64,000 nt of DNA from a virus. Of the stretch, positions 699-57,963 are shown piece by piece (position 1 is the first letter of the stretch; every line of letters starts with the position of its first letter). The stretch spans positions 1 through 64,000 of IMG/VR virus record IMGVR_UViG_3300046314_000223; one strand, 5' to 3'. Position numbers and translations under genes: made by a program. Below the pieces are notes generated by a model. It was not told the DNA's origin and made no database searches. It saw only the letters and a program-made list of their open reading frames with translations.

Positions 699-1175
699 AT
701 GCAATACGCACTAATCAAAAATGGCAGCGTTGTCAATACAATTGTAGCAGAACAAGAATTCATCGCATCTATTACTTCTGAATATGACCATATTGAGGCA
801 CTTGATACTCTCCATGAACAAGGTCTGAATATCGGTATGGGGTGGACTTGGAATGGTGAGTTTCATGCTCCTGTCGTAATCCCTGTTGACCCTCCCGCCC
901 CAGTTACTCAAACACGCCACATCACTCAATTGGCGTTCATGACACGTTTCACCGATGCCGAAGCCATTGCGCTGGACTTGGCGTCTATTGGAGCCACTGT
1001 TGAGGCTGCTTCTATGCGACGTTATTTGGACAAAGTTAAAGTCGCCAAGCATATTGACCTTGACCGACCGGATACTCGTGCTGGTGTGCAGATGCTGGAA
1101 ACTATTGGTCTGTTGTCTGCCGGTCGCGCTCTGCAAATCTTGGACGCACCAATCGAGCCAAGCGAACGAGCATAA
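699..1175 (+). CDS. Hypothetical tail-fibre-associated protein
   Basis: 158 residues, starting 11 bases after the glycine-rich gene. The N-terminus (MQYALIKNGSVVNTIVA) has the short beta-hairpin form often seen at the start of small phage tail-fibre accessory or assembly proteins. A Pro-rich linker (VDPPAPV, about residues 64-70) leads to a helical C-terminal half. No catalytic motif is visible. Position in the fibre operon suggests a tail-fibre accessory or chaperone role; this is inference from context. Confidence 0.6.
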   Translation: MQYALIKNGSVVNTIVAEQEFIASITSEYDHIEALDTLHEQGLNIGMGWTWNGEFHAPVVIPVDPPAPVTQTRHITQLAFMTRFTDAEAIALDLASIGATVEAASMRRYLDKVKVAKHIDLDRPDTRAGVQMLETIGLLSAGRALQILDAPIEPSERA

Positions 1176-1176
1176 A

Positions 1177-1389
1177 ATGCCAACAATCAATCTGTTGCCA
1201 TCATCAGGAACCGGAACGTCAACCGAGACCATCATTGAGTTGGTTCCTGATGATATGACGGTATCGGCGCTATCTGTTGATGTCACCGGAGTTGAGGATA
1301 AGTCACTGCTTATGTTTGATGCTGCACGATCAACATGGGTAACCACAAGAAACATAGAGAATCATTTCATTAACGGAGGTCAATACTAA
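1177..1389 (+). CDS. Small hypothetical protein in fibre operon
   Basis: 70 residues, start ATG at 1177, one base after the preceding TAA, and its own TAA abuts the next ATG at 1390. A GGAGGT ribosome-binding site for the next gene lies in its last codons. The sequence begins MPTINLLPSSGTG and has a beta-rich middle and an aromatic C-terminus. No family recognised. The tight packing between fibre genes makes it a likely real virion-associated or assembly gene. Confidence 0.6.
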   Translation: MPTINLLPSSGTGTSTETIIELVPDDMTVSALSVDVTGVEDKSLLMFDAARSTWVTTRNIENHFINGGQY

Positions 1390-3294
1390 ATGGCAACAAT
1401 CAATCGAATTAAGCGCTCAGAGACAGCAGGCAATCCACCTACGCTGGCTCAGGGCGAACTGGCATACTCTGCACTGGCAGACAACGGAGCAAACGGCGGT
1501 GACCGTCTGTATATTGGTATGGGCACTGAGACTGCTGGCGATGCAGTCAATCATGTGGTCATTGGTGGTAAATTCTTCACCGATAAGCTGGATCATGCCA
1601 ATGGCGTGGTCACGGCTGATTCTGCCTTGGTGGTTGATTCCAGCAAGAAGCTGGATGAACTGAATGTTGATAACGTCACCATCAATGGTAATACCGTCTC
1701 TACGACCGATACCAATGGCGACCTGATTCTTGCTCCAAATGGAACGGGTAAGGCTGTCATCTCTGGTAATGCATTCCCTAATACTCAGGGTATTGCTGAC
1801 CAGTATCTGAAGACCGATGGCGCTGGCGCTCTTTCTTGGGCTACCATTCCGTCCGGTTCGTTTACCATTGCTGGTGATACTGGCACTGACGTATTCACTA
1901 CCGGCGAAACGCTGACCGTTGTTGGCGGGGCTGACCTGACTTCTGTTGTCACTGACAATACCATCACAATCAATGCCGATGCATCGCTGGCTCGCCGTGC
2001 AGATGTCACCTATGTGGGTACGACTGAGATTGCGCTGAACCGTGCTTCTGGTTCTCAAGACCTGACCGGCATTACCGGATTGGTCTTGGATGGGTCCACT
2101 TCCGGCATCACAACCTTGGTTGCTTCTGCTGATGCTGGTGAGGAAACGATTACGCTTCCCGCTGCTACAGGTACTGTTGCTCTGACTAATCAGAAGCTTA
2201 ATACCTTTGCCGCCACGTCATCCGCTGAATTGGCTGGTGTTATCTCCGATGAGACTGGATCTGGTGCTCTGGTGTTTGGGACGTCCCCAACACTGGTTAC
2301 ACCTAACATTGGTGCAGCCACTGCCGATTCTATCACCGGTTCCGGTGCCCTGATCATCACTGCTGGTGGTTCCGATGCAAACGTGACTCTGGCTCCAACC
2401 GGAACGGGCTCCGTTGATGTATCGAACAAGCGAATCAGTTCTGTTGCCGAACCAACTCAAGCAACCGATGCTGCAACAAAGTCCTATGTGGATTCCAAGG
2501 CATCCGGTCTTGACCCAAAGGAATCAGTCAAAGCAGCTACGACAACCAGCATCACCCTGATTGGTCTGCAGACCGTTGATGGTGTTGGTCTGAGTAACGG
2601 CGATCGCGTTTTGGTTAAGGATCAGGCAACTGCATCCGAAAACGGCATTTATGTTGCAGATACCAATTCATGGGTTCGCTCCACGGATGCCAATGATTCC
2701 ACCAAGGTCACCCCCGGTCTGTTTACATTTGTCGAGCAGGGCGATACTCAGGCCGATACCGGCTGGACACTGGCTACGGATGGCGTAATCAACCTGAATG
2801 TAACTGACCTGTCTTTCACGCAATTCTCCAGCGCCGGATCGGTTGTTGCTGGAGCCGGTCTGACCAAGACGGGCAACACTCTGGACGTTGTTGTTGGTGG
2901 CGGCGTTGCTATCGTCGGTAACACTGTTCAACTGGATGCCACAGTTGCTGGCGGTGGCTTGACACTGACCTCTGGTGTTCTGAATGTGGTTGGCACGACA
3001 GATCGAATTGCTGTTGCTGCCGATTCGATTGACATTGCATCTACCTATGTTGGTCAGGCATCCATCACCACGGTTGGTACTCTGACTGCCGGTGAGTTGG
3101 GTTCTGGCTTCACAACGGTTGCTGTTGCTCAGGGCGGTACCGGCGCAACTTCCTTGACTGCTCGCGGTGTTGTGATTGGTAACGGAACGTCTGCTGTGTC
3201 TACGGTGGTATCTGGAACCGATGGTTCTGTGCTGATGGCGGATGCTACCGGCAACCCATACTGGTCTAACGTCATTGATGGCGGCACTTATTGA
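1390..3294 (+). CDS. Tail fibre-like structural protein
   Basis: 634 residues with a strong GGAGGT ribosome-binding site. The N-terminus (INRIKRSETAGNPPTLAQGE) is the type found on virion structural proteins of T4-like cyano- and pelagiphages. The body is beta-rich, low in Cys and Trp, with degenerate repeats such as NGDLILAPNGTGK and ANVTLAPTGTGSVDVSNKR, which suggest a trimeric fibre shaft. The C-terminal part carries AQGGTGATSLTARGVVIGNG, a motif common near the tips of phage fibres. Likely a long or side tail fibre; the receptor-binding role is inferred. Confidence 0.8.
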   Translation: MATINRIKRSETAGNPPTLAQGELAYSALADNGANGGDRLYIGMGTETAGDAVNHVVIGGKFFTDKLDHANGVVTADSALVVDSSKKLDELNVDNVTINGNTVSTTDTNGDLILAPNGTGKAVISGNAFPNTQGIADQYLKTDGAGALSWATIPSGSFTIAGDTGTDVFTTGETLTVVGGADLTSVVTDNTITINADASLARRADVTYVGTTEIALNRASGSQDLTGITGLVLDGSTSGITTLVASADAGEETITLPAATGTVALTNQKLNTFAATSSAELAGVISDETGSGALVFGTSPTLVTPNIGAATADSITGSGALIITAGGSDANVTLAPTGTGSVDVSNKRISSVAEPTQATDAATKSYVDSKASGLDPKESVKAATTTSITLIGLQTVDGVGLSNGDRVLVKDQATASENGIYVADTNSWVRSTDANDSTKVTPGLFTFVEQGDTQADTGWTLATDGVINLNVTDLSFTQFSSAGSVVAGAGLTKTGNTLDVVVGGGVAIVGNTVQLDATVAGGGLTLTSGVLNVVGTTDRIAVAADSIDIASTYVGQASITTVGTLTAGELGSGFTTVAVAQGGTGATSLTARGVVIGNGTSAVSTVVSGTDGSVLMADATGNPYWSNVIDGGTY

Positions 3295-3322
3295 TTACTG
3301 TCAATAGGTAAATACATACACA

Positions 3323-3343
3323 GGGGCTTCTTAGCCCCTTTTT
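3323..3343 (+). terminator. Rho-independent terminator after fibre gene
   Basis: Perfect 6-bp stem GGGGCT/AGCCCC with a TCTT loop followed by TTTTT. It lies 28 bases after the stop of the 634-residue fibre gene. Confidence 0.85.
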
Positions 3344-3367
3344 CTTTCCTTATTAGGACATTCGATA

Positions 3368-3670
3368 ATGCCACAACAGGTTATCTTAAAGAAGTCATCG
3401 GTCACATCCAAGATTCCAACAATCGGAGACTTGGAATTCGGTGAACTTGCAATCAATTATGCAGACGGTCGCCTTTATTACAAGGATTCGACTGTTGCAA
3501 TCAAATACTTCATCAATTCAGATCAGATAGCCGCTGCATATCAGCCAACATTGGTATCTGGGTCTAACATCAAAACGGTCAATGGTTTATCTCTGGTTGG
3601 CTCTGGAGATATCACTGTTGGTGGAGCATCAATCAGTGATGCAATGGCTGTTGCAATCGCACTAGGGTAA
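3368..3670 (+). CDS. Small fibre-family structural protein
   Basis: 100 residues. The N-terminus (MPQQVILKKSSVTSKIPTIG, then DLEFGELAINYADGRLYYKD) is a module that begins many T4-like cyanophage and pelagiphage virion proteins. Here it is almost the whole protein, followed by a short LTVNGLSLVGSGDITVGG-like segment typical of fibre tails. It may be a truncated fibre or a short adaptor. It sits just downstream of a terminator and may be read from its own promoter. Confidence 0.65.
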   Translation: MPQQVILKKSSVTSKIPTIGDLEFGELAINYADGRLYYKDSTVAIKYFINSDQIAAAYQPTLVSGSNIKTVNGLSLVGSGDITVGGASISDAMAVAIALG

Positions 3671-3675
3671 AGAAA

Positions 3676-4395
3676 ATGATCACATTGGCACTTGTATTGG
3701 AAGCCTTGGCTTATATCGGAATTGGGTTTGTTGGATTCCTCTTGTTTGCACATAATCCAATTATCCCAACTATCAGAATCCTGATGCTTCCGATCCCAGA
3801 CAAATTCAACTGCATTTTCTGTTTTTGGGGCGCATGGTTCCGTTCATTACTGACATTCATTCCAGACATTCTATCCCCAGTCATTGTTCCTATTGCCCTG
3901 TTGTTCACCAAGTGGGAAGATGACAAGTTACCATGGATTTTTTCTTGGTGGGATAATGATGCCAGTATCAATGGCGACGTCAGGACAGATGATTCGTCTG
4001 ATGGTAAGGATGGATGGGGGCTCAGGCATGTTCCTGTTGAGGATACACCAGAAGCCAGAGCCATGTGTTACTGGGCTAAAAACGCACACCCACGAAGTTT
4101 CAAGGCAAGGTATATCTGGTTGGGCTTGCGAAATCGTGCATCATACTTGTCAATGCTGCTGGGTAAAGATCACCCTCCGGTTGATGCTCAATTATGGGAA
4201 TCGGGTAATGCCTACAGACCTGATTATACTGGATGGCGAGTTCACCGAATCGGGAATATCTGGCGTTATTTTGAAACGGTCAAGGTCGGACCTATATTCT
4301 TCCGGTTTCATTATGGCTACAAGATTCCCAAGATTCCTCATTCCAAGGTTGCCATGGTGACTGCCATTGCATTCTCATTCCAGAAGGCAGACTGA
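3676..4395 (+). CDS. Membrane-anchored protein of unknown function
   Basis: 239 residues, starting 5 bases after the previous stop. Two hydrophobic N-terminal segments (about residues 2-26 and 53-77) flank a Cys/Trp-rich turn (FNCIFCFWGAWF), predicting two membrane passes. The soluble C-terminal part is rich in Trp, Arg and His (WAKNAHPRSFKARYIWLGLR). Similar proteins occur as uncharacterised genes in other phages. No enzymatic motif recognised. Confidence 0.6.
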   Translation: MITLALVLEALAYIGIGFVGFLLFAHNPIIPTIRILMLPIPDKFNCIFCFWGAWFRSLLTFIPDILSPVIVPIALLFTKWEDDKLPWIFSWWDNDASINGDVRTDDSSDGKDGWGLRHVPVEDTPEARAMCYWAKNAHPRSFKARYIWLGLRNRASYLSMLLGKDHPPVDAQLWESGNAYRPDYTGWRVHRIGNIWRYFETVKVGPIFFRFHYGYKIPKIPHSKVAMVTAIAFSFQKAD

Positions 4396-4396
4396 T

Positions 4397-4738
4397 ATGG
4401 TCAAGTATAGAAACATTTTCATCTACCCACACTCTCCCTACTCTCAGGTCATTACGATCAAGAATCCAGACCAGACAGTAGATGATGTCACTGGATATAC
4501 AGGCAGAATGTATCTGGCAAAGCATCATGAATCGGCCACCAAGTATGCGGTTGACCTGATCATCGAAAATGCTGCTGGCGGGATGATGAAGGCATCATTG
4601 GCTCCCGAGTCAACTGCAATATTGCCGGTCGGAACCATGATGTATTCTGTTTTCGTCACCCCTCCCGGCGATGAAGAACGGCTGATTATGCAGGGGGCAG
4701 CGGTTATTGAACCTACCATCCACCCGGCGTTACCATAA
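4397..4738 (+). CDS. Ig-like / BppU-N-like small structural protein
   Basis: 113 residues from ATG 4397; an upstream ATG at 4367 would overlap the previous gene and is less likely. The pattern of an N-terminal strand, DVTGYTGRMYLAKHH, 'PESTAILPVGTMMYSVFVT' and a final GAAVIEP strand matches the layout of baseplate-upper-protein N-terminal domains (DUF2479/BppU_N type) that connect fibres to baseplates. The assignment is by fold pattern only. Its last 9 bases overlap the convergent terminase gene. Confidence 0.5.
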   Translation: MVKYRNIFIYPHSPYSQVITIKNPDQTVDDVTGYTGRMYLAKHHESATKYAVDLIIENAAGGMMKASLAPESTAILPVGTMMYSVFVTPPGDEERLIMQGAAVIEPTIHPALP

Positions 4739-6898
4739 TCCACTGGACTGTCTGACCTGCCATACATCACCGTTGAATATGACGGTTTCTTCCTCTATTG
4801 CTGGCATTCCATCATCCAAGAATCCGATTGGGGCTAATTGCTCATCAAATTCCTCAATCTGCTTCTTGATGAATGCCTGCCTCAGTGAGAAGTCGAACAG
4901 TTCTCGGAACACAGCCTCCTGCACCAAGTAACCAAACATCACCAAGCACATAACCAAGTCATCATGCTTGCCTTCTTCTGCCTTGTATGACGTTCCTGAC
5001 CGGGTGAACGTGGAAAGTTCCTCCAGAATCTCATGGTCATTTATGATCAGGTGATCCGATTCAACCAATGTCTTTAGTTGGTCACACCCAATGGCCTTGG
5101 TTCTCTTGGTGGTTCTGATGCCCGGAGTCTTTTGCTTGCCACCAGCACCTTCCTTAATTTTGTCATTGACTGACATATAGACATTTTCATATTCCAAGTC
5201 ATAGAAAAGAATATCAGCAACCTGCTGACCAAGGTCATTGGTTTCTATCAGGACAAAGGCATCATTAAATCGTTTGGCGACTTTCATTATTACCTCTGGA
5301 TACATCAGAGTGTTGATTGAGTTGCAGCTAAACTTGGCAACAATTTTATATGGCATCTGGTTGATATCAAATACCACAAAGGCCGATGAGTCCAAGTCAG
5401 CACCTCTGGCCGTATCGACTGTGATGACATAGTTCCCTCCGGGAGAATCTGTGGTCTTCTTGATCGGGGGTTCAAATTCGGTGTAGTTTGGAAACAGAAC
5501 ATTTCCGGTCTTGTGTGGAATCTGAGCCAGCTTTCCGCCTGAGATTAGTGTATAGCTACTTCCTTGGAAAACACAGTTGTGATGGACAATTCCATCCGCA
5601 ATGTATGAATTTGTTGGATTCTTTACGTTTACCGGATCATACAGAGTCGTAAACGAGTCCTCGGACGTTACACAAACAACTCTAACTCCATTAGACAGCT
5701 TTGTTGTTGGCTTTAGGGATTTTGCCTTGATGAAACCTTTGTTGGTTTTAACAAGATGATCTGTTGAACAAATCAGCGTCTTTCCGGTATTGACTGTGAT
5801 CTGGACGTTGGTTTTCTTCTGCTTAACGGATATACCATCAAAATTACACCAGCCGTAATCGGTCATGATCTGATACTTGGAATCAGACGACATATCAATC
5901 AGTCGATATGCTTCTGTCATGGATGCGGAAATTTCCTTGTTTGTATTGGTGTCCTTTAATTGAATGATACTGTCCCCATGCAGGCATTCCACCTCTTGAG
6001 CAAACTTAACTGGTCCGAGAATGGAAAATTGTTCGTCTGCCCATGCTTGAGTTCTCTTTGGGTGCTGCTTCCAACTTGTATATACTGGGTGGAATCCATT
6101 AATCCCTTGTTCAGCCTCGACCCACATCTTGTAGAAATGATTCATACCATTTGGGGTGGACACAATAATCATCTTGGATGATTCAGCAGAAGAAATCGTC
6201 GGGAATACAGATGCAATGAACTCATCCGCCAATCCGGGACGCAGGAATGCAAATTCGTCCAATGCCAATAGGGAAATTGAGCTACCTCGAACAGCAGAGG
6301 CGGATGTGGCAGCGCATGATACCTTGGAGCCGTTCTCCAACATGAACGATGTCTTGTTCCATTCCTTGACGCCCTGCTGAAGCCATTTTGGACACGCTTC
6401 GATGATGAATTGGACTCGGGAGAAAATGTCCTTGGCCGTATTCATCTTGTTTGCCAAGATCATGGAGTTCTTAGAATCATTGAACAATGTATACCATGCA
6501 ATATATCCAGCCAAGGTTGTGGAGTTGTGCGACAATATTCCGTTGGTGTAGTATCTATGGTCTTCAGAATCAACGGACAGATCATACATATTTTCGATGA
6601 TTCCCGTATTTGCCACGGATTTCACCGACTCCAGCCCAACATCGGTATAAATTTTTTGACCCGGAATCAAGTCCTTGACGAAAACTTCCTCATGATCTGA
6701 TGTGAATACAATGTGTGTATCCGCACAACCAAGCGAATACCCATTATCCAAGACCAATCGGTATTTGGTATATTCTATGGTCTTATTGGCCGAAAGTATT
6801 GGTTGATACCCAGAATCCGTCAGAATTTCCCAATCAGAGACGTCAAACTTCTCTATAAACTTTCTCTCTACACCGTCAGATAATTTATTTTTGCCCAT
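4730..6898 (-). CDS. terL: Terminase large subunit, C-terminal half (split-intein C-part plus second mini-intein)
   Basis: 722 residues. Residues 1-125 are a C-intein ending ILSHN; residues 126-304 continue the gp17-type ATPase from STTLAGYIAW and include Walker B (LLALDEFAF). Residues 305-441 are a second, uninterrupted intein starting Cys-Leu-His-Gly-Asp and ending HHN before Cys. Residues 442-722 are the nuclease half, with acidic motifs VDTARG, IETNDLG and GKHDDLVM, equivalent to the metal-binding acidic residues of T4 gp17. With the N-half at 7999-8379, removing both inteins gives about 549 residues, compared with 610 for T4 gp17. The protein is the ATP-driven motor and headful nuclease of DNA packaging. 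The gene runs opposite to gp18-gp23. Confidence 0.93.
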   Translation of the reverse strand: MGKNKLSDGVERKFIEKFDVSDWEILTDSGYQPILSANKTIEYTKYRLVLDNGYSLGCADTHIVFTSDHEEVFVKDLIPGQKIYTDVGLESVKSVANTGIIENMYDLSVDSEDHRYYTNGILSHNSTTLAGYIAWYTLFNDSKNSMILANKMNTAKDIFSRVQFIIEACPKWLQQGVKEWNKTSFMLENGSKVSCAATSASAVRGSSISLLALDEFAFLRPGLADEFIASVFPTISSAESSKMIIVSTPNGMNHFYKMWVEAEQGINGFHPVYTSWKQHPKRTQAWADEQFSILGPVKFAQEVECLHGDSIIQLKDTNTNKEISASMTEAYRLIDMSSDSKYQIMTDYGWCNFDGISVKQKKTNVQITVNTGKTLICSTDHLVKTNKGFIKAKSLKPTTKLSNGVRVVCVTSEDSFTTLYDPVNVKNPTNSYIADGIVHHNCVFQGSSYTLISGGKLAQIPHKTGNVLFPNYTEFEPPIKKTTDSPGGNYVITVDTARGADLDSSAFVVFDINQMPYKIVAKFSCNSINTLMYPEVIMKVAKRFNDAFVLIETNDLGQQVADILFYDLEYENVYMSVNDKIKEGAGGKQKTPGIRTTKRTKAIGCDQLKTLVESDHLIINDHEILEELSTFTRSGTSYKAEEGKHDDLVMCLVMFGYLVQEAVFRELFDFSLRQAFIKKQIEEFDEQLAPIGFLDDGMPAIEEETVIFNGDVWQVRQSSGLW
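5576..5986 (-). other. Mini-intein in TerL (continuous, second site)
   Basis: 137-residue in-frame insertion. It starts at Cys (codon 5986-5984) after FAQEVE and ends at Asn (5578-5576) before CVFQGSS; the joined product reads QEVECVFQGSS, which matches T4 gp17 around YECEFLGSS. It has intein block A (CLHGDS), block B (ICSTDHLV), block F/G (IADGIVHHN) and Cys+1. No endonuclease domain is present. From memory, the site and sequence resemble the atypically split AceL-TerL intein, but here the intein is one piece. Confidence 0.9.
6524..6898 (-). other. C-intein of split TerL intein
   Basis: First 125 residues of the C-terminal terminase ORF. It contains block B-like CADTHIVFTSDH, a DLIPGQ block D-like turn, and the C-terminal YTNGILSHN followed by Ser+1. 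It pairs with a 37-residue N-intein at 8002-8112, so the break lies near the N-terminus of the fold (atypical split). Confidence 0.88.
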
Positions 6899-6908
6899 TC
6901 GTATTCTT

Positions 6909-7970
6909 CTAATATGTCGTTTTCTGATTTTGATTCAACGTAGTTTGCCAATTCATTGCCGAGACTCCCCTAAGAGTCTCGCTGAAACCAAATACGCCAT
7001 GTTGCTCTGCTAGTGTGATTGTCTTATCGGAAAAATCGTGCTTGACCAAACATTCCAATTTGGCAATTAGGTCAAGATCGCCTTCCATTGTATATACAAC
7101 CTCACAACCATCCATTTGCTTCTTGGTATATCGCTGGTCCATTCTGCGTGAAGTGATTCCAAATTTCAGGAGGTCATTTGGAAGTGAGACCATATAGAAC
7201 AGCCCCTTGATATTTACGTAAAGATCAGAGTCAATCAGACCGTAGTTGGTATTGATTGCTTTCCGGCGATTGATGTCTTGAATTTCCTCTGGGGATTTGG
7301 AGTTCATGACCCCAATCCATTTGCTCTGTCTCTCTTTCCAGATTCTGCGACCTTCTTTCTCACCATGCTTCTTTATACAAACTTCCAGAGAAAATGTCCT
7401 CTGTCGGTCAGATAGTGCAAGTTCAGCTTCCCGTTGAGACATTCCTTTGGACAGATAGTATTCTATTCTTGTGGATTCATTTTGTGGATTTGCTGCCTTT
7501 GTTTCTTTAGCTGCATCAGCAGTTTCTCGAATTTTCTGAGCCTTTTCTTCCTCAGTCAACCCATCGTATTTTAGGAATTTATCTGAGAACGCGGAAAATT
7601 TGCCTCCGTGTTGGTATCCGGGATTTTTCTCACCTTTTATTGAATCTTTCCGCGTCTGGCATATAACTTCAGCATTGTATTTTGCTTTATATTCATCTAC
7701 AGTCAACCCATGTGTATATACGTGTCTGGCAATACTCGTTGCTTGCATCCCACATAATTTACACTCCACATATTCGTCTGGATGGGCATCTATAAATTTT
7801 GATATAGTCGATACTCGTCGCCGCTCATTTAATTTAATTTTCTGTGCCTGTTTATATGCTTCATCAGCAACCATTGAACATTTGGCTGAGCACGTAACCC
7901 TTTTGTAGTTTCCAGTTGGTGACGTTAACACGCCCTCGCATATTTTGCAAGTTTTTTGAATTGGTTCCAT
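6909..7970 (-). CDS. Free-standing GIY-YIG homing endonuclease with zinc fingers
   Basis: 353 residues, located between the two halves of the broken terminase gene, with only 28 and 10 bases of spacing. The N-terminus has a four-Cys cluster (CKIC...CSAKC). A MucR/Ros-like finger follows (CKLCGMQ...RHVYTHG, then VDEYKAKYN), a DNA-binding module often found in phage homing enzymes. The C-terminal region (GLFYMVSLPNDLLKFGITSR followed by ..RYTKKQ and ..AKLECLVKHDF) fits a GIY-YIG-type nuclease of the T5orf172 kind, with FYMV, KFGIT and the catalytic Glu. It probably cleaves intein-less terminase alleles and spreads the split arrangement. Confidence 0.8.
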   Translation of the reverse strand: MEPIQKTCKICEGVLTSPTGNYKRVTCSAKCSMVADEAYKQAQKIKLNERRRVSTISKFIDAHPDEYVECKLCGMQATSIARHVYTHGLTVDEYKAKYNAEVICQTRKDSIKGEKNPGYQHGGKFSAFSDKFLKYDGLTEEEKAQKIRETADAAKETKAANPQNESTRIEYYLSKGMSQREAELALSDRQRTFSLEVCIKKHGEKEGRRIWKERQSKWIGVMNSKSPEEIQDINRRKAINTNYGLIDSDLYVNIKGLFYMVSLPNDLLKFGITSRRMDQRYTKKQMDGCEVVYTMEGDLDLIAKLECLVKHDFSDKTITLAEQHGVFGFSETLRGVSAMNWQTTLNQNQKTTY

Positions 7971-7998
7971 AATAAATCTCCAAAATCAAGAGTTGTAA

Positions 7999-8379
7999 TT
8001 ATACAACATCAGAATCCCTCTTTACCATGGAATGAAACTCAGCAGCGGAAATTTCCATTATTTCCCCGGTTTTTTTGTTCCTTATCGTGTATTTTGTGTC
8101 GCCTTCGTGACACTTGCCCATCTGCCGGGGTAACTTACCGACAGTTTTCCGATTCTCATGAAAAGACAGAATCAGTTCCTTCTGATACCCAAACAACTTA
8201 AATGGGACAACCCCATCATCCAATGAAATGATCCGACCATATACCTCCAAGAAATAAATTGGGTCTTTGGAGCACTTTTCATATTCAAGTATTTGATCCT
8301 GAGTAAACTGAATAGATTCCCCAACTTGCTTCAGATGTGGATTGTTCAGGTAACCCTTGGGTGTTTTTTGTATAGCCAT
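7999..8379 (-). CDS. terL: Terminase large subunit, N-terminal half plus split N-intein
   Basis: 126 residues. Residues 1-89 are the gp17 N-terminus, ending in the Walker A-like PRQMGK; residues 90-126 begin with Cys (CHEGDTKYTI) and form a very short 37-residue N-intein ending at TAA. The Walker A loop is finished only after trans-splicing to STT at the start of the C-extein (RQMGK-STT, compared with SRQLGKTT in T4 gp17). Neither half can bind ATP normally alone, so packaging depends on splicing. No large terminase copy without the break is seen in the window. Confidence 0.92.
   Translation of the reverse strand: MAIQKTPKGYLNNPHLKQVGESIQFTQDQILEYEKCSKDPIYFLEVYGRIISLDDGVVPFKLFGYQKELILSFHENRKTVGKLPRQMGKCHEGDTKYTIRNKKTGEIMEISAAEFHSMVKRDSDVV
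8002..8112 (-). other. N-intein of split TerL intein (37 residues)
   Basis: The N-intein begins at Cys (codon 8112-8110) directly after Lys of the Walker A motif and stops after KRDSDVV. Canonical N-inteins are about 90-110 residues, so a 37-residue N-piece with a 125-residue C-piece is an atypical N-terminal split. Confidence 0.85.
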
Positions 8380-11089: not shown

Positions 11090-13846
11090 ATGCAACTGAA
11101 TATCTTTGGCTTTGAAATTCGCAAGACTCCAGAAGCGCCCGCCTTGGTTCCCGAGAACAAGGCGGATGGTGCCATTGAGCAATTCACTGGCGCTGGTGCT
11201 GCTCATTATGCCCATGTTTTTGACATCAATGGGCGCCTGAATGATGATGTCGCCAAGATTAATCGTTATCGCCAATTGTCTCATGTTGCCGAAATCGACA
11301 GTGCAATTGAGGAAATCGTCACCGAAGCCATTGTTGTAGAAGAAGAAAAGCTGCCGGTTCAGGTTAACGTGGTTGCCGGGGATGAGACTATCCCAGAACA
11401 GATCAAAGAAGCCATTGTAGAGGAATTCAAGAACATACTGGCTCTGATGGAATTCAACACCGAAGGACATGACCTTTTCCGGCGATGGTATGTTGATGGT
11501 CGTCTGTATGGACAGATGTTGGTTGACGAATCCGACTTGGCTGCAGGTATCAAAGATATTCGATTTATTGACCCCCGTAAGATCAAGAAAGTTCGTGAGA
11601 TTCAACGTCAGAAAAATTCTGCTGGCGTTGACATCATCACCGGAACCACTGAATATTTTGCGTTCAATGATGCAGGCATTAACGCCACGACAAATGCTGC
11701 CATCAAGCTGTCCCCGGACAATATCATCTATGCGCCATCTGGTATTACAGATGAATCCGGTGAGACGATCGGATATTTAAATAAAACGATCAAACCAGCC
11801 AATATGCTCCGATATATGGAGGATGCGGTGTTGGTTTATACCTTGGCTCGGGCACCTGAGCGCCGGGTCTTTTACATTGATGTGGCAGATATCCCCAAAC
11901 AGAAAGCCGATCAGTATATCCGAGATGTGATGGCTCGGTATAAGAACAAAGTTGTTTACAACCAAGCTACGGGTGAAATTTCCGATGATCGAATCCACCA
12001 GTGTCTGGTAATGGATACCAAGGTTCCTCTGCTGGATGGGCGCACCCTGACTCTGACCGAAATCGCCAATGAATACAAAGACAAGGAACTGTGGGCATAT
12101 TCATGCGACCCAGTGACTGGTAAATTTGCTCCCGGAAAAATCACATGGGCTGGCGTTTCTCGTCCAGATGCAGAGATTATTCGTCTGACACTGGATAACG
12201 GCAAGACTATTGATTGCACCCATGAACACCAATTCCCCGTATGGGGTAAGAACTTGGTTCAGGCCAAGGATTTGGTTGTTGGTGATTCGATGATTCCTCT
12301 GTATCGGAAGAAGGCTCAAATCAGCCAAGCAAACAAGTATGGGTATGAGCAGTTGTTTGACAACGAAAACAAAAAATGGGTATTCACACATCGAGCAGTT
12401 TCCGCATGGAAAGACGCCAACTCACTTGAGAATGAATTTGTCTTTGATCCAAAATTCATTGATGCCGAAAAGAAAACGGTTCATCATATGAATTGCAAGC
12501 CTCTTGACAATTCCCCCAATAATTTGTTCCGCATGAACAACGGAGACCATAACAAATGGCATCATGCAAATGGCGCAATTGCCGGAAGTTTTGGTGGTAA
12601 GCGTGCTGCAGAACTTGGGATACCCCAAGAGAATTATGCCAAGGGTCGTCGCATTTTTTCTGAAATGATGCAAGACCCAGAGTTCCATGCAAAATTCTGT
12701 GAAGGTCAGAAAAACAATTGGACTCCAGAACAAAAGGAACGTCAATCTGGAGTTGCCAAGAATATCAACCTGAGCGCTCGTGGCAATGCCGCCAAACAGG
12801 AACTCTTTAAGACCAATGAAAAACAAGATCAGCATAAGCAGATGTATGCAACTGCATATAGTCAGTCTATGTATGATGCGGTTGTTTCTTGTGCAAAGTC
12901 TGGAATGACAAAGGATGCTGCCGCCAAATTCATGACTGAATCCTCTGGTTTGCTATTGACATTCATTGAACTCAATAGCTCTAAGTGCGTTAGCTCTGGA
13001 CAAAAATCATTTGATAGATTCACCAAATATGATGTTGTCCGAATTGCCAAAGAATATGCAGACACGACATACAAGGAACTTGGAGATCAGTTCAAATACA
13101 GGAATCACAAAATTGTCAAGATTGAGTATCTGAGCGAAAGACAAGATACCGGTTGCTTGACAATTGATGGCAATGAGGAATTCCATAACTACCATACCTT
13201 TGCTTTGGATGCTGGAATTTATACAAAAAACTCATTATTGGAGGATTATTGGATGCCCCGCAGATCGAATGGGCGCTCCACGGAAATCACCACGCTCCCC
13301 GGCTCATCCATTATGTCCAATATGGATAATGTGAATTACTTCTTGAACAAGTTGTATGCTGCCCTGAACGTCCCAATGTCAAGGATGAAAGCAGACGCCG
13401 GGTTTAACTTGGGAAGAACCAGTGAAATCACACGGGACGAAATCAAGTTCAATAAATTCGTATCCAGACTTCGCCGCAAGTTCTCTGAGGTGTTCTATCA
13501 GGCTCTGCGCGTTCAGTTGATTCTGAAGGGAATCATTGCCCCGGAAGACTGGCAGTTTATCAAGTCCAAGATTAACTTTGACTTCCTTAGAGACAACTAC
13601 TTCTCTGAACTCAAGGACAATGAAATCCTGACCGGGAGAATTCAGATGGCTGAAATGATTCAGCCTTATATGGACAAGTATTACTCTCATAAATATGTCA
13701 GAACCATGATCCTCAAGCAGACTGAGGAAGAAATGGAAGACATGGATAAGGAACGGGAGATTGAAATGAAGCAGCATCCCGAGTGGTTTATGCCTCCGGG
13801 GATGGATATGGGTGGCTCTCCCGGTCAGTCAGAACAGCAGCAATAA
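11090..13846 (+). CDS. gp20: Portal protein with embedded HNH intein
   Basis: 918 residues. Residues 1-304 and 715-918 match T4 gp20: FDINGRLNDDVAKINRYRQL, IDSAIEEIVTEAIV, and after the insert SLLEDYWMPRRSNGRSTEI then TLPGSSIM. Without the 410-residue intein the portal is about 508 residues (T4 gp20 is 524). The dodecameric portal is the DNA entry channel, the head-tail junction and the docking site for terminase. The intein lies just before the conserved LLEDYW segment, so splicing is needed for head assembly. Confidence 0.95.
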   Translation: MQLNIFGFEIRKTPEAPALVPENKADGAIEQFTGAGAAHYAHVFDINGRLNDDVAKINRYRQLSHVAEIDSAIEEIVTEAIVVEEEKLPVQVNVVAGDETIPEQIKEAIVEEFKNILALMEFNTEGHDLFRRWYVDGRLYGQMLVDESDLAAGIKDIRFIDPRKIKKVREIQRQKNSAGVDIITGTTEYFAFNDAGINATTNAAIKLSPDNIIYAPSGITDESGETIGYLNKTIKPANMLRYMEDAVLVYTLARAPERRVFYIDVADIPKQKADQYIRDVMARYKNKVVYNQATGEISDDRIHQCLVMDTKVPLLDGRTLTLTEIANEYKDKELWAYSCDPVTGKFAPGKITWAGVSRPDAEIIRLTLDNGKTIDCTHEHQFPVWGKNLVQAKDLVVGDSMIPLYRKKAQISQANKYGYEQLFDNENKKWVFTHRAVSAWKDANSLENEFVFDPKFIDAEKKTVHHMNCKPLDNSPNNLFRMNNGDHNKWHHANGAIAGSFGGKRAAELGIPQENYAKGRRIFSEMMQDPEFHAKFCEGQKNNWTPEQKERQSGVAKNINLSARGNAAKQELFKTNEKQDQHKQMYATAYSQSMYDAVVSCAKSGMTKDAAAKFMTESSGLLLTFIELNSSKCVSSGQKSFDRFTKYDVVRIAKEYADTTYKELGDQFKYRNHKIVKIEYLSERQDTGCLTIDGNEEFHNYHTFALDAGIYTKNSLLEDYWMPRRSNGRSTEITTLPGSSIMSNMDNVNYFLNKLYAALNVPMSRMKADAGFNLGRTSEITRDEIKFNKFVSRLRRKFSEVFYQALRVQLILKGIIAPEDWQFIKSKINFDFLRDNYFSELKDNEILTGRIQMAEMIQPYMDKYYSHKYVRTMILKQTEEEMEDMDKEREIEMKQHPEWFMPPGMDMGGSPGQSEQQQ
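12002..13231 (+). other. HNH-containing intein in portal protein
   Basis: 410 residues, portal residues 305-714. The N-terminus is CLVMDTKVPLLDGR (block A); block B is DCTHEHQFPVWG. A central HNH nuclease motif (TVHHMNCKPLDNSPNNLFRM, about residues 463-482 of the ORF, then NKWHHANG) is followed by helical DNA-binding-like segments. The C-terminus reads YTKN before Ser+1. The residue before the terminal Asn is Lys rather than the usual His, which may slow Asn cyclisation or need a compensating residue. Confidence 0.92.
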
Positions 13847-55711: not shown

Positions 55712-56338
55712 ATGGTTGAAAATTTGCTCTTGGTTGAAAAATACCGCCCACGTTCTGTCTCCGATTGCATCCTGCCTGCACGAATCAAGGACTCCATTCA
55801 GGATGCCATTGACTCCAATAACCTTCAGCATATGATTTTTCATGGGCCTGCCGGGGCAGGTAAGACCAGCCTAGCCAAGGCAATCTGTGGGGATATCTCA
55901 GGCGACATGCTGTATATCAATGCATCCAATGAGACTGGCATTGATGTGGTGCGAAACAAGGTATCCAACTTTGCATCCACCATGTCATTCGATGGTAACA
56001 TGAAGGTTGTCTTGTTGGATGAATGTCTGTCCGAAGATGAGACTGTTCGTGTTGGACATACTGACCTGTGGAAACCTGTTGCTCTGAAAGAACTTGAGCT
56101 TGGTCAAGAGTACCCGATTGTGTCATTCAATGAATCAACGCAAGAATTTGAGAATGATACTGGCTCTATAATTTCCGATAAGGTGGATGATATGTATGAG
56201 GTGATGCTGGATAGCGGAAAAACTATCGTCTGCAACAAGAAGCACCCTTTTATGTGTCAGTCTCCAGATGGTTCAATTGTCCAGCGCACGATTGAAGAAG
56301 GTCTGGATGGTTACTTGGTGATTGTTGCCAATGATTGA
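55712..56338 (+). CDS. gp44: Clamp loader ATPase, N-terminal part plus split N-intein
   Basis: 208 residues. Residues 1-104 are the gp44/RFC-type AAA+ N-terminus: LLVEKYRPRSVSDCILP, Walker A GPAGAGKTS and Walker B VVLLDE. Residues 105-208 start with Cys (CLSEDETVRVG) and form a 104-residue, very acidic N-intein ending at TGA. The break falls inside the DExx box region: after splicing the protein reads LLDECDRLSSSAQ. Clamp loading thus depends on trans-splicing with the product of 57217-57963. Total extein 311 residues, T4 gp44 319. Confidence 0.92.
   Translation: MVENLLLVEKYRPRSVSDCILPARIKDSIQDAIDSNNLQHMIFHGPAGAGKTSLAKAICGDISGDMLYINASNETGIDVVRNKVSNFASTMSFDGNMKVVLLDECLSEDETVRVGHTDLWKPVALKELELGQEYPIVSFNESTQEFENDTGSIISDKVDDMYEVMLDSGKTIVCNKKHPFMCQSPDGSIVQRTIEEGLDGYLVIVAND
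56024..56335 (+). other. N-intein of split gp44 intein
   Basis: 104 residues from Cys (56024-56026). Block A CLSEDETVRV, block B-like VCNKKHPFMCQ, acidic throughout (ESTQEFENDTGS). The matching 41-residue C-intein is basic, a charge split typical of canonical split inteins. Confidence 0.9.
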
Positions 56339-57200
56339 TGCAATTGCGGATCAATATCGACTGATTCATGCAAAGTCTCGTCAGTGGCCGAATCTGAGTA
56401 ATTCGGTTCCGGTTGCTGCCATTCAGCATGAACAGACATGCGCTAAGAGTCACCTGACTGAATCCGATGGGTTGGATCAATGGGTCAGGCAGAGCGATGT
56501 TGATTATCCGATTCGCTCCAGAACCATATTCTCTATGGGGCTGGACTATCTTCTTAGCCGAGGTGTTCATACTGATTGGATGGAGCGTCAGCATGACCAT
56601 CATCTGCAGCAATCGCATGCCTCAAATCTGACCGATATTGACAAGGATCATATCCAGAAGTTGATAATTGGTGGGATGGAATATGGACATGATTCTGACT
56701 CTGCCGACCTGACCAAGTTCTTGACTGATGCCTATAAGACTCGATCTAAGCCATCTTTGTTTGTCAGGAAGCACGTCAAGGATGTCAGTGTTCCTCCTGA
56801 CCAGATTGACCTGACCAAGGTGGATTCTGCGCTGGGTAAGAATACATTTGCCGATGGATTTCATTCATTTCATGGTATTGGATTTCATCCCGGAAAGTTG
56901 GTTGGCAATTCAGATATGTTGCATCTGCCAGCATATACTTCCGGGTCAGTCAATCGAAATATTGCCCTGAAATATGCTAAACTATCTCCTGTTGATGGAG
57001 CGCACCATGTCATTCATATGGTGCATCCCAAGGACTCAACCGGAGTCTACATCGGAAATCAATCGTTCCATGATAACGAAGTTCTGCTACCCAGAAACTT
57101 GACCCTGAAGATTCACCCCCATGAATCTGCCCGCTATGATGTGAATGGTAAACCAGTTCATGTCTGGGTTGCTCACCGAATCCCTTTTACCGAAATCTAA
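56331..57200 (+). CDS. ADP-ribosyltransferase-like protein in the gap of split gp44
   Basis: 289 residues from ATG 56331, overlapping the N-intein end by 8 bases. The C-terminal half has ART landmarks in order: a strand with Arg (KPSLFVRKHV, Arg146), HLPAYTSGSVNRNIALKYA (STS-like, 199-216), and HDNEVLLPRN with Glu250 (E/D-x-E site of the ARTT loop; here Asp248-x-Glu250), followed by LTLKIHP. These are the R-S-E elements of the Alt/ModA and mono-ART class. The N-terminal 110 residues are helical. No nuclease motif is visible, so it is not a homing endonuclease. Confidence 0.6.
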   Translation: MIDAIADQYRLIHAKSRQWPNLSNSVPVAAIQHEQTCAKSHLTESDGLDQWVRQSDVDYPIRSRTIFSMGLDYLLSRGVHTDWMERQHDHHLQQSHASNLTDIDKDHIQKLIIGGMEYGHDSDSADLTKFLTDAYKTRSKPSLFVRKHVKDVSVPPDQIDLTKVDSALGKNTFADGFHSFHGIGFHPGKLVGNSDMLHLPAYTSGSVNRNIALKYAKLSPVDGAHHVIHMVHPKDSTGVYIGNQSFHDNEVLLPRNLTLKIHPHESARYDVNGKPVHVWVAHRIPFTEI

Positions 57201-57216
57201 ACTCTTGAAAGTTCTC

Positions 57217-57339
57217 ATGTCTTCTTATACATTATGCAAGGTAAAGTCAATTCTCCCTCTTGGTCGCGGCAGGGTCATTAACCTTACCGTCAACAAGAAT
57301 CATACATTTGTCACTGGAAATGGCATTGTCACTCACAAT
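57217..57339 (+). other. C-intein of split gp44 intein
   Basis: 41 residues ending GNGIVTHN (Asn codon 57337-57339) before Cys+1. Contains NLTVNKNHTFV, the block F signature. The 104/41 split matches the canonical position used by DnaE- and gp41-type split inteins. Confidence 0.9.
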
Positions 57340-57963
57340 TGTGACCGCCTTTCCTCGTCTGCTCAGGACTCTCTGAAGGCAACCATGGAGCAGTTTGCCG
57401 GTGCAACGACTCGGTTTATCATGACCAGCAATAACAAGCAGAAGATCATTGCTCCGATCATGTCAAGGTCTACCATGTATGACTTCACCATGACCACGGA
57501 TGAGCGAAATGCCCTGATTCCTATTGCTTTCAAGAGAATCGCCACGATTCTGAAGGCAGAAAACATCGAATATGATCCCAAGTCGGTGGCATCTCTGGTT
57601 CAGAAGCACTATCCCGACATGCGGAAAACCTTGAATGAGATTCAACGATATTCCTCCAATGGAAAGATTGATGCGGGTATCTTGATTCAAGAGAACACCA
57701 CCACAGATGAACTGATTGGTTTCCTGAAGAACAAAAAGTTTGGGGATGTTCGCAAGTGGCTGGCTCGTAACCCGGACTTGGATCATCAGTTGCTTTTGCG
57801 ACACTTCTATGACAATCTGACGGAACTATTCACCCCTCAGACAATCCCAGAAGTCATCCTGATCCTGTCTCAGTATCAGTATTATGCATCTCGTGTGGTT
57901 GACCAAGAAATCAACACGATGGCATGTCTGATCGAAATGGTCAAGGGGTCAGAATGGAAGTAA
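57217..57963 (+). CDS. gp44: Clamp loader ATPase, C-terminal part plus split C-intein
   Basis: 248 residues from ATG 57217; an in-frame ATG at 57145 would overlap the ART-like gene. Residues 1-41 are a basic C-intein (MSSYTLCKVKSILPLGRGRV...GIVTHN) with Cys+1. Residues 42-248 continue gp44: CDRLSSSAQDSLKATMEQFA, FIMTSNNKQKIIAPIMSRS (sensor 1 and arginine-finger region) and the C-terminal collar domain. No other gp44 copy is seen. Confidence 0.92.
   Translation: MSSYTLCKVKSILPLGRGRVINLTVNKNHTFVTGNGIVTHNCDRLSSSAQDSLKATMEQFAGATTRFIMTSNNKQKIIAPIMSRSTMYDFTMTTDERNALIPIAFKRIATILKAENIEYDPKSVASLVQKHYPDMRKTLNEIQRYSSNGKIDAGILIQENTTTDELIGFLKNKKFGDVRKWLARNPDLDHQLLLRHFYDNLTELFTPQTIPEVILILSQYQYYASRVVDQEINTMACLIEMVKGSEWK

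Follow-up and report, generated by a model that had tools for sequence, protein, structure and literature searches.

The DNA analyzed here (the window) comprises the first 64 kb of a 90,772-base IMG/VR virus record, a metagenomic fragment in which a single portal gene was found; an intein-free portal copy may lie beyond the fragment. The ORF at 11090–13846 encodes 918 amino acids and is open throughout without a stop codon. Its product is a T4-like portal protein, gp20, and the Portal_T4 profile (E 1e-146) matched both flanks of a foreign segment at residues 305–714. The intein-splicing profile PF14890 matched between these flanks; PF14890, run with the intein alone (E 1.9e-10), and TIGR01445 intein_Nterm (E 3.5e-9) both exceeded their curated cut-offs. 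Alignment to the solved T4 gp20 covered query residues 57–301 and 715–895 and placed T4 residues 328 and 329 at ORF residues 304 and 715, so that the insert is exactly 410 residues. It starts with CLVMDTKVPLLDG, carries the HNH string HHMNCKPLDNSPNN...DHNKWHH, and ends with GIYTKN, followed by Ser. The initial annotation had described an in-frame HNH-containing insertion ending in YTKN before Ser at this position; this description proved correct, and T4 gp20 joins exactly at residues 304 and 715. Of 2,469 phage records encoding a gp20 relative, none matched 80% of the query at a single locus, so this insert was found in none of them. Identical copies of the 410-residue intein were found in three more IMG/VR contigs (L002, L003, and L007, the last at a contig end).

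Table 1. Features of the intein-bearing portal gene in the 64-kb window.
Feature	Position	Strand	Evidence
Portal (T4 gp20-like) N-extein, residues 1–304	11090..12001	+	Portal_T4 1e-146; T4 gp20 alignment to residue 325, 3 residues before the junction
HNH intein, 410 residues	12002..13231	+	PF14890 1.9e-10; TIGR01445 3.5e-9; AlphaFold2 pLDDT 91.1; NrdJ-1 Z 20.2
Block A, CLVMDTKVPLLDG, nucleophile Cys1	12002..12040	+	Cys1 in 61/61 representatives
Block B, DNGKTIDCTHEHQFPV; Thr B:7 (residue 73), His B:10 (residue 76)	12194..12241	+	Both 61/61
HNH nuclease motif, VHHMNCKPLDNSPNNLFRMNNGDHNKWHH	12476..12571	+	H161, H162, N170, N174, H183 61/61; H187 60/61
All-helical region past the HNH motif, presumably DNA-binding	12629..13096	+	AlphaFold2 secondary structure
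Block F, TGCLTIDGNEEFHNYHTF; F:4 = Cys385 (codon 13154–13156), F:13 = His398 (codon 13193–13195)	13148..13201	+	F:13 His 61/61
Block G end: penultimate Lys409 (G:6), cyclizing Asn410	13226..13231	+	G:6 His 0/61; Asn 61/61
Portal C-extein, first residue Ser+1 (T4 gp20 Ser329)	13232..13843	+	Portal_T4; T4 alignment

Relatives of the portal intein were collected by two scans of viral contigs, which counted 364 and 492 relatives; the best 80 of each were retained, so rarer states may be missed. All loci retained from the first scan interrupt gp20-type portals, as judged from flanking motifs; reduction to <90% identity left 61 representatives. As shown in Table 1, Cys1, Thr B:7, His B:10, His F:13, and the terminal Asn are each present in every representative. 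In contrast, G:6 is Lys in 45, Cys in 8, Gln in 3, Arg in 2, and Phe, Gly, or Asn in one each, and His in none. A C-terminal pattern was part of the first scan and possibly biased it on G:6, whereas the second relied on N-terminal-half patterns only, and again no His was found at G:6 among the full-length matches read. Across related inteins with Thr or Cys at F:4, G:6 holds Lys, Cys, Gln, Arg, Phe, Gly, Asn, Met, or Tyr. Among the matches listed, the nearest relative (L021, 62% identical) occupies the same site with Gly at G:6, and the next ones have Gln and Arg. A regex count of the clade (64) was too strict and supports no claim. The phage-record collection yielded seven records with relatives, the best full-length one at 27.6% identity; a dCTP deaminase intein (L011) came from these records rather than from the viral-contig scans. 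The portal intein falls within a well-supported clade whose members are HNH inteins of portal genes and occupy several neighboring gp20 sites. Because every close relative found likewise lacks the helper His, the missing G:6 His is, judged from these sequences, probably an evolved splicing mode in a large phage family and not the mark of a broken or slow copy. A broader statement, that all portal inteins lack this His, was rejected when a wider scan found sister portal lineages that retain it, and the claim is limited to the clade. A 280-residue version of the portal intein (TKN before Thr+1) was also observed in gp20 of a 132-kb contig filed under a Bacteroidetes MAG (L099, 2501–3340); its nuclease region looks shortened.

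Next, the fold was analyzed with an AlphaFold2 model built on a 50-sequence alignment (pLDDT 91.1, pTM 0.67). The HINT splicing domain is formed by residues ~1–105 and 367–410, the HNH region lies at ~125–195, and helices occupy ~210–365. A PDB sequence search gave weak matches (best NrdJ-1, E 0.0013), and the fold search was decisive: comparison of the whole model with solved structures returned inteins, with NrdJ-1 at Z 20.2 (rmsd 1.9 Å over 141 residues), Ssp DnaB at Z 19.3, and Npu DnaE at Z 18.6. HNH profile matches were weak and below the Pfam cut-off (PF13392, E 0.024; phrog_7545, E 3.7e-5). The H-N-H catalytic residues are present, and H161/H162, N170/N174, and H183 are conserved in all 61 representatives. 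The HNH domain, if active as the predicted nuclease, would probably home into intein-free gp20 alleles. No family match was found for the helical region.

The portal intein has the features of class 1: Cys1, a block B TxxH (T73, H76), Asn410 with Ser+1, the HINT fold, and an in-frame position in a protein whose homologues lack the insert. The +1 residue is Thr in a few relatives. The penultimate His is replaced by Lys409, as had been annotated; its absence is not exclusionary for class 1, and the G:6 His is missing in ~5% of functional inteins (PMC4031507). A second absent helper was overlooked in the initial annotation: F:4, usually Asp (PMC4031507), is Cys385 in the portal intein. Class 3 inteins employ a block F Cys (PMC7664689), and Cys occupies F:4 in 11 of the 61 representatives, so that Cys385 rather than Cys1 might be considered the branch-point nucleophile. 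This route is very improbable, given that Cys1 is invariant, F:4 is Thr in most of the clade, and the Trp-Cys-Thr triad is incomplete, with Leu at F:5 and Phe78 at the block B position instead of Trp.

Lys409 itself might stand in for His as a stabilizer or general acid in Asn cyclization, being the commonest G:6 state and recurring in further lineages whose F:4 is not Asp (L010/L300, L075, and L011). However, G:6 is Gly, Gln, or Arg in close relatives that share the insertion site and Cys, Phe, Met, Tyr, or Asn elsewhere in the clade. Since G:6 may be Lys, Cys, Gln, Phe, Gly, or Met, we consider it unlikely that Lys acts as a catalyst in place of His.

Selection was measured on relatives, as the portal intein itself, with its nearest relative at 62% identity, is too distant for the test. 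For pairs of relatives 72–98% identical, dN/dS of the whole intein was 0.10–0.21. Among the pairs that had diverged further, values were 0.02–0.18 in the N- and C-terminal splicing blocks and 0.09–0.27 in the HNH region, and constraint was in most cases stronger on the splicing blocks. The sampled clade members are under purifying selection and appear to be maintained as working proteins despite having no G:6 His. As the splicing activity of the portal intein is a prediction from sequence, the insert could instead be a splicing-dead relic or an in-frame insertion retained purely as a nuclease gene. The tighter constraint on the splicing blocks argues against this, as do the conservation of every splicing nucleophile and the location in an essential structural gene present in one copy in the record; we give this alternative hardly any weight.

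The initial annotation had further suggested that Lys makes splicing slow or conditional, or makes it rely on another residue. If Asn cyclization were slow or trigger-dependent without the G:6 His, it could time portal and head assembly. Asn cyclization is the slow step in most inteins studied, and some inteins splice better when the His is restored (PMC4031507); however, the Bethlehem RDF phage intein, which has Gly at the penultimate position, spliced more slowly once His was added (PMC5050341), so that published restorations go both ways. Moreover, the entire clade lacks the His while its splicing blocks are conserved under purifying selection, the residues at G:6 are chemically unlike one another, and no trigger motif was seen. 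Slow or conditional splicing is, therefore, rather improbable. Reliance on another residue, by contrast, is probably right, with the invariant His F:13 as the candidate. This His has been assigned to deprotonating Asn and stabilizing the intermediate, whereas His G:6 assists (PMC4031507).

The best explanation overall, to which we assign a probability of about three in four, is ordinary four-step splicing with Lys409 tolerated and not catalytic. Cys1 would undergo the first acyl shift, aided by the block B Thr and His; transfer to Ser+1, cyclization of Asn410, and a second acyl shift would then follow. His398 (F:13) would probably drive Asn cyclization, with Thr or Cys at F:4 retuning the active site. 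The spliced portal would contain the junction peptide ...DDRIHQSLLEDYWMPR. Portal splicing is probably efficient because the insertion lies in the clip domain, the docking surface of the packaging motor.

We then compared F:4 with G:6. Among the 61 representatives, F:4 is Thr in 48, Cys in 11, Asn in 2, and Asp in none. In 263 distinct related HNH inteins, Asp at F:4 was accompanied by His at G:6 in 97 of 99 cases, whereas other F:4 residues were accompanied by His in 2 of 164, both of them RtcB inteins (L155 and L162) with Cys and His. On the best tree, built without the F:4 and G:6 columns and having long deep branches, each trait needs six changes. The non-Asp/non-His pairs fall in the main clade (one branch, 100/97 support) and in L010+L300, L075, L292, L289, and L011, several of these lineages being single long branches. 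The best tree thus suggests that Asp F:4 and His G:6 were lost together about six times; however, because only three independent pairs lie on well-supported branches (two agree, and one shows no difference in G:6), we treat the coupling as a hypothesis and make no statistical claim. Nor is it general among inteins, since the Ssp and Npu DnaE inteins keep Asp at F:4 without a penultimate His, and the gp44 intein in the window looks like Asn F:4 with His.

In Pho RadA, Asp F:4 was proposed to restrain Asn until the branched intermediate forms (PMC4031507). Asp F:4 as a brake and His G:6 as an accelerator may act on one step: loss of the helper alone would slow that step, loss of the brake alone would risk early cleavage, and with both lost the balance could hold. 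We tentatively propose, as a possibility somewhat short of even odds, that joint loss of the two residues occurred several times among portal HNH inteins and produced an alternative class 1 active site (Thr, Cys, or Asn at F:4, an invariant His F:13, and a free G:6), in which the order of the steps would be kept although both residues are gone. Related phage inteins in the same gene number in the hundreds, some having both Asp F:4 and His G:6 and others having neither, and constitute a natural experiment. Single and double swaps would test step coordination and survival of penultimate His loss directly, and the clade supplies many candidate inteins for protein engineering.

The insertion sites were placed by alignment in T4 numbering. 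The portal intein lies between gp20 residues 328 and 329, inside the clip domain; other clade members lie at 316/317, 319/320, and 353/354, and one more just past a ...PRREG motif. All these sites fall in the clip domain (279–358), with 353/354 in the channel loop (350–359). A more distant member, L010, is probably inserted further along gp20, near the tunnel loop. The clip domain is the binding site for gp17, the packaging ATPase, and for the neck (PMC4493910). With respect to the annotated coupling of head assembly to splicing, a need for the portal to splice beforehand is reasonably expected from the clip-domain site; the same would hold for any intein there, and it is not evidence of regulation. 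Some portal ORFs bear several inteins, with three splicing domains each in L006 and L010 and two each in L004 and L090. The three domains in L006 (1–5187) and L010 (1027–5187) are of different types, and L006 also has a LAGLIDADG domain. The gp20 clip region is a recurrent intein target, with two or three inteins in some portal genes. As gp20 serves as a standard marker of T4-like phages, alleles with inteins may escape PCR or be mis-annotated.

Other inteins were also observed in the window. The large terminase gene gp17 (4730–8379, minus strand) appears split at the ATP-binding region by intein halves in ORFs 7999–8379 and 4730–6898; a 353-aa ORF between them (6909–7970) weakly matches HNH endonucleases and ROS/MUCR. 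The C-terminal ORF itself contains a second intein, around 5576–5830. Thus, the portal and its motor partner are both intein-bearing. The clamp loader gene gp44 (55712–57963, plus strand) is likewise split, with the two intein halves in different ORFs (55712–56338 and 57145–57963) and the C-half ending in ...GIVTHN, followed by C. Between these halves, in a third frame, lies a 292-aa ORF (56322–57200) with a weak ADP-ribosyltransferase match (PF03496, E 0.01) and no match in PHROGs, PDB, or phage records. It would be unusual for a split intein to carry a passenger other than a nuclease.

Finally, the portal intein was compared with known systems. The Ssp and Npu DnaE inteins (PDB 1zd7 and 4kl5; fold match Z ~17–19) splice without a penultimate His, as predicted for the portal intein, but they are split and have no nuclease. 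Cellular GyrB, GyrA, and RtcB HNH inteins (L102–L178) are homologous full-length inteins with HNH, roughly 24–34% identical, whose block ends align with that of the portal intein (GVFVHN versus GIYTKN); they keep His G:6 and Asp F:4, except L155 and L162, with Cys at F:4. Sister portal HNH inteins (L268, L258, L103, L259, L260, and others) resemble the portal clade in their gp20-type hosts, HNH type, and TGDITI/TCDITI block F, but they retain both Asp F:4 and His G:6. The contig of L103 (portal-type ORF, 1115–4132) is filed as a Woesearchaeota MAG and may be a virus or provirus. In the literature searched, whose coverage excludes most subscription journals, no description of T4-like gp20 inteins was found. 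Penultimate-Lys phage inteins and portal inteins have already been published in mycobacteriophages, where class 1 inteins have penultimate Gly, Lys, or Ser and some lie in portal genes (Kelley et al. 2016, PMC5050341). These share with the portal intein the phage hosts, the tolerated loss of the G:6 His, and, in some, the penultimate Lys, whereas here the host gene is a T4-like gp20, an HNH nuclease is present, and a whole clade at several neighboring sites lacks G:6 His and Asp F:4. What appears to be new is, therefore, a large gp20 HNH clade without either residue, beside sister portal inteins that keep both.
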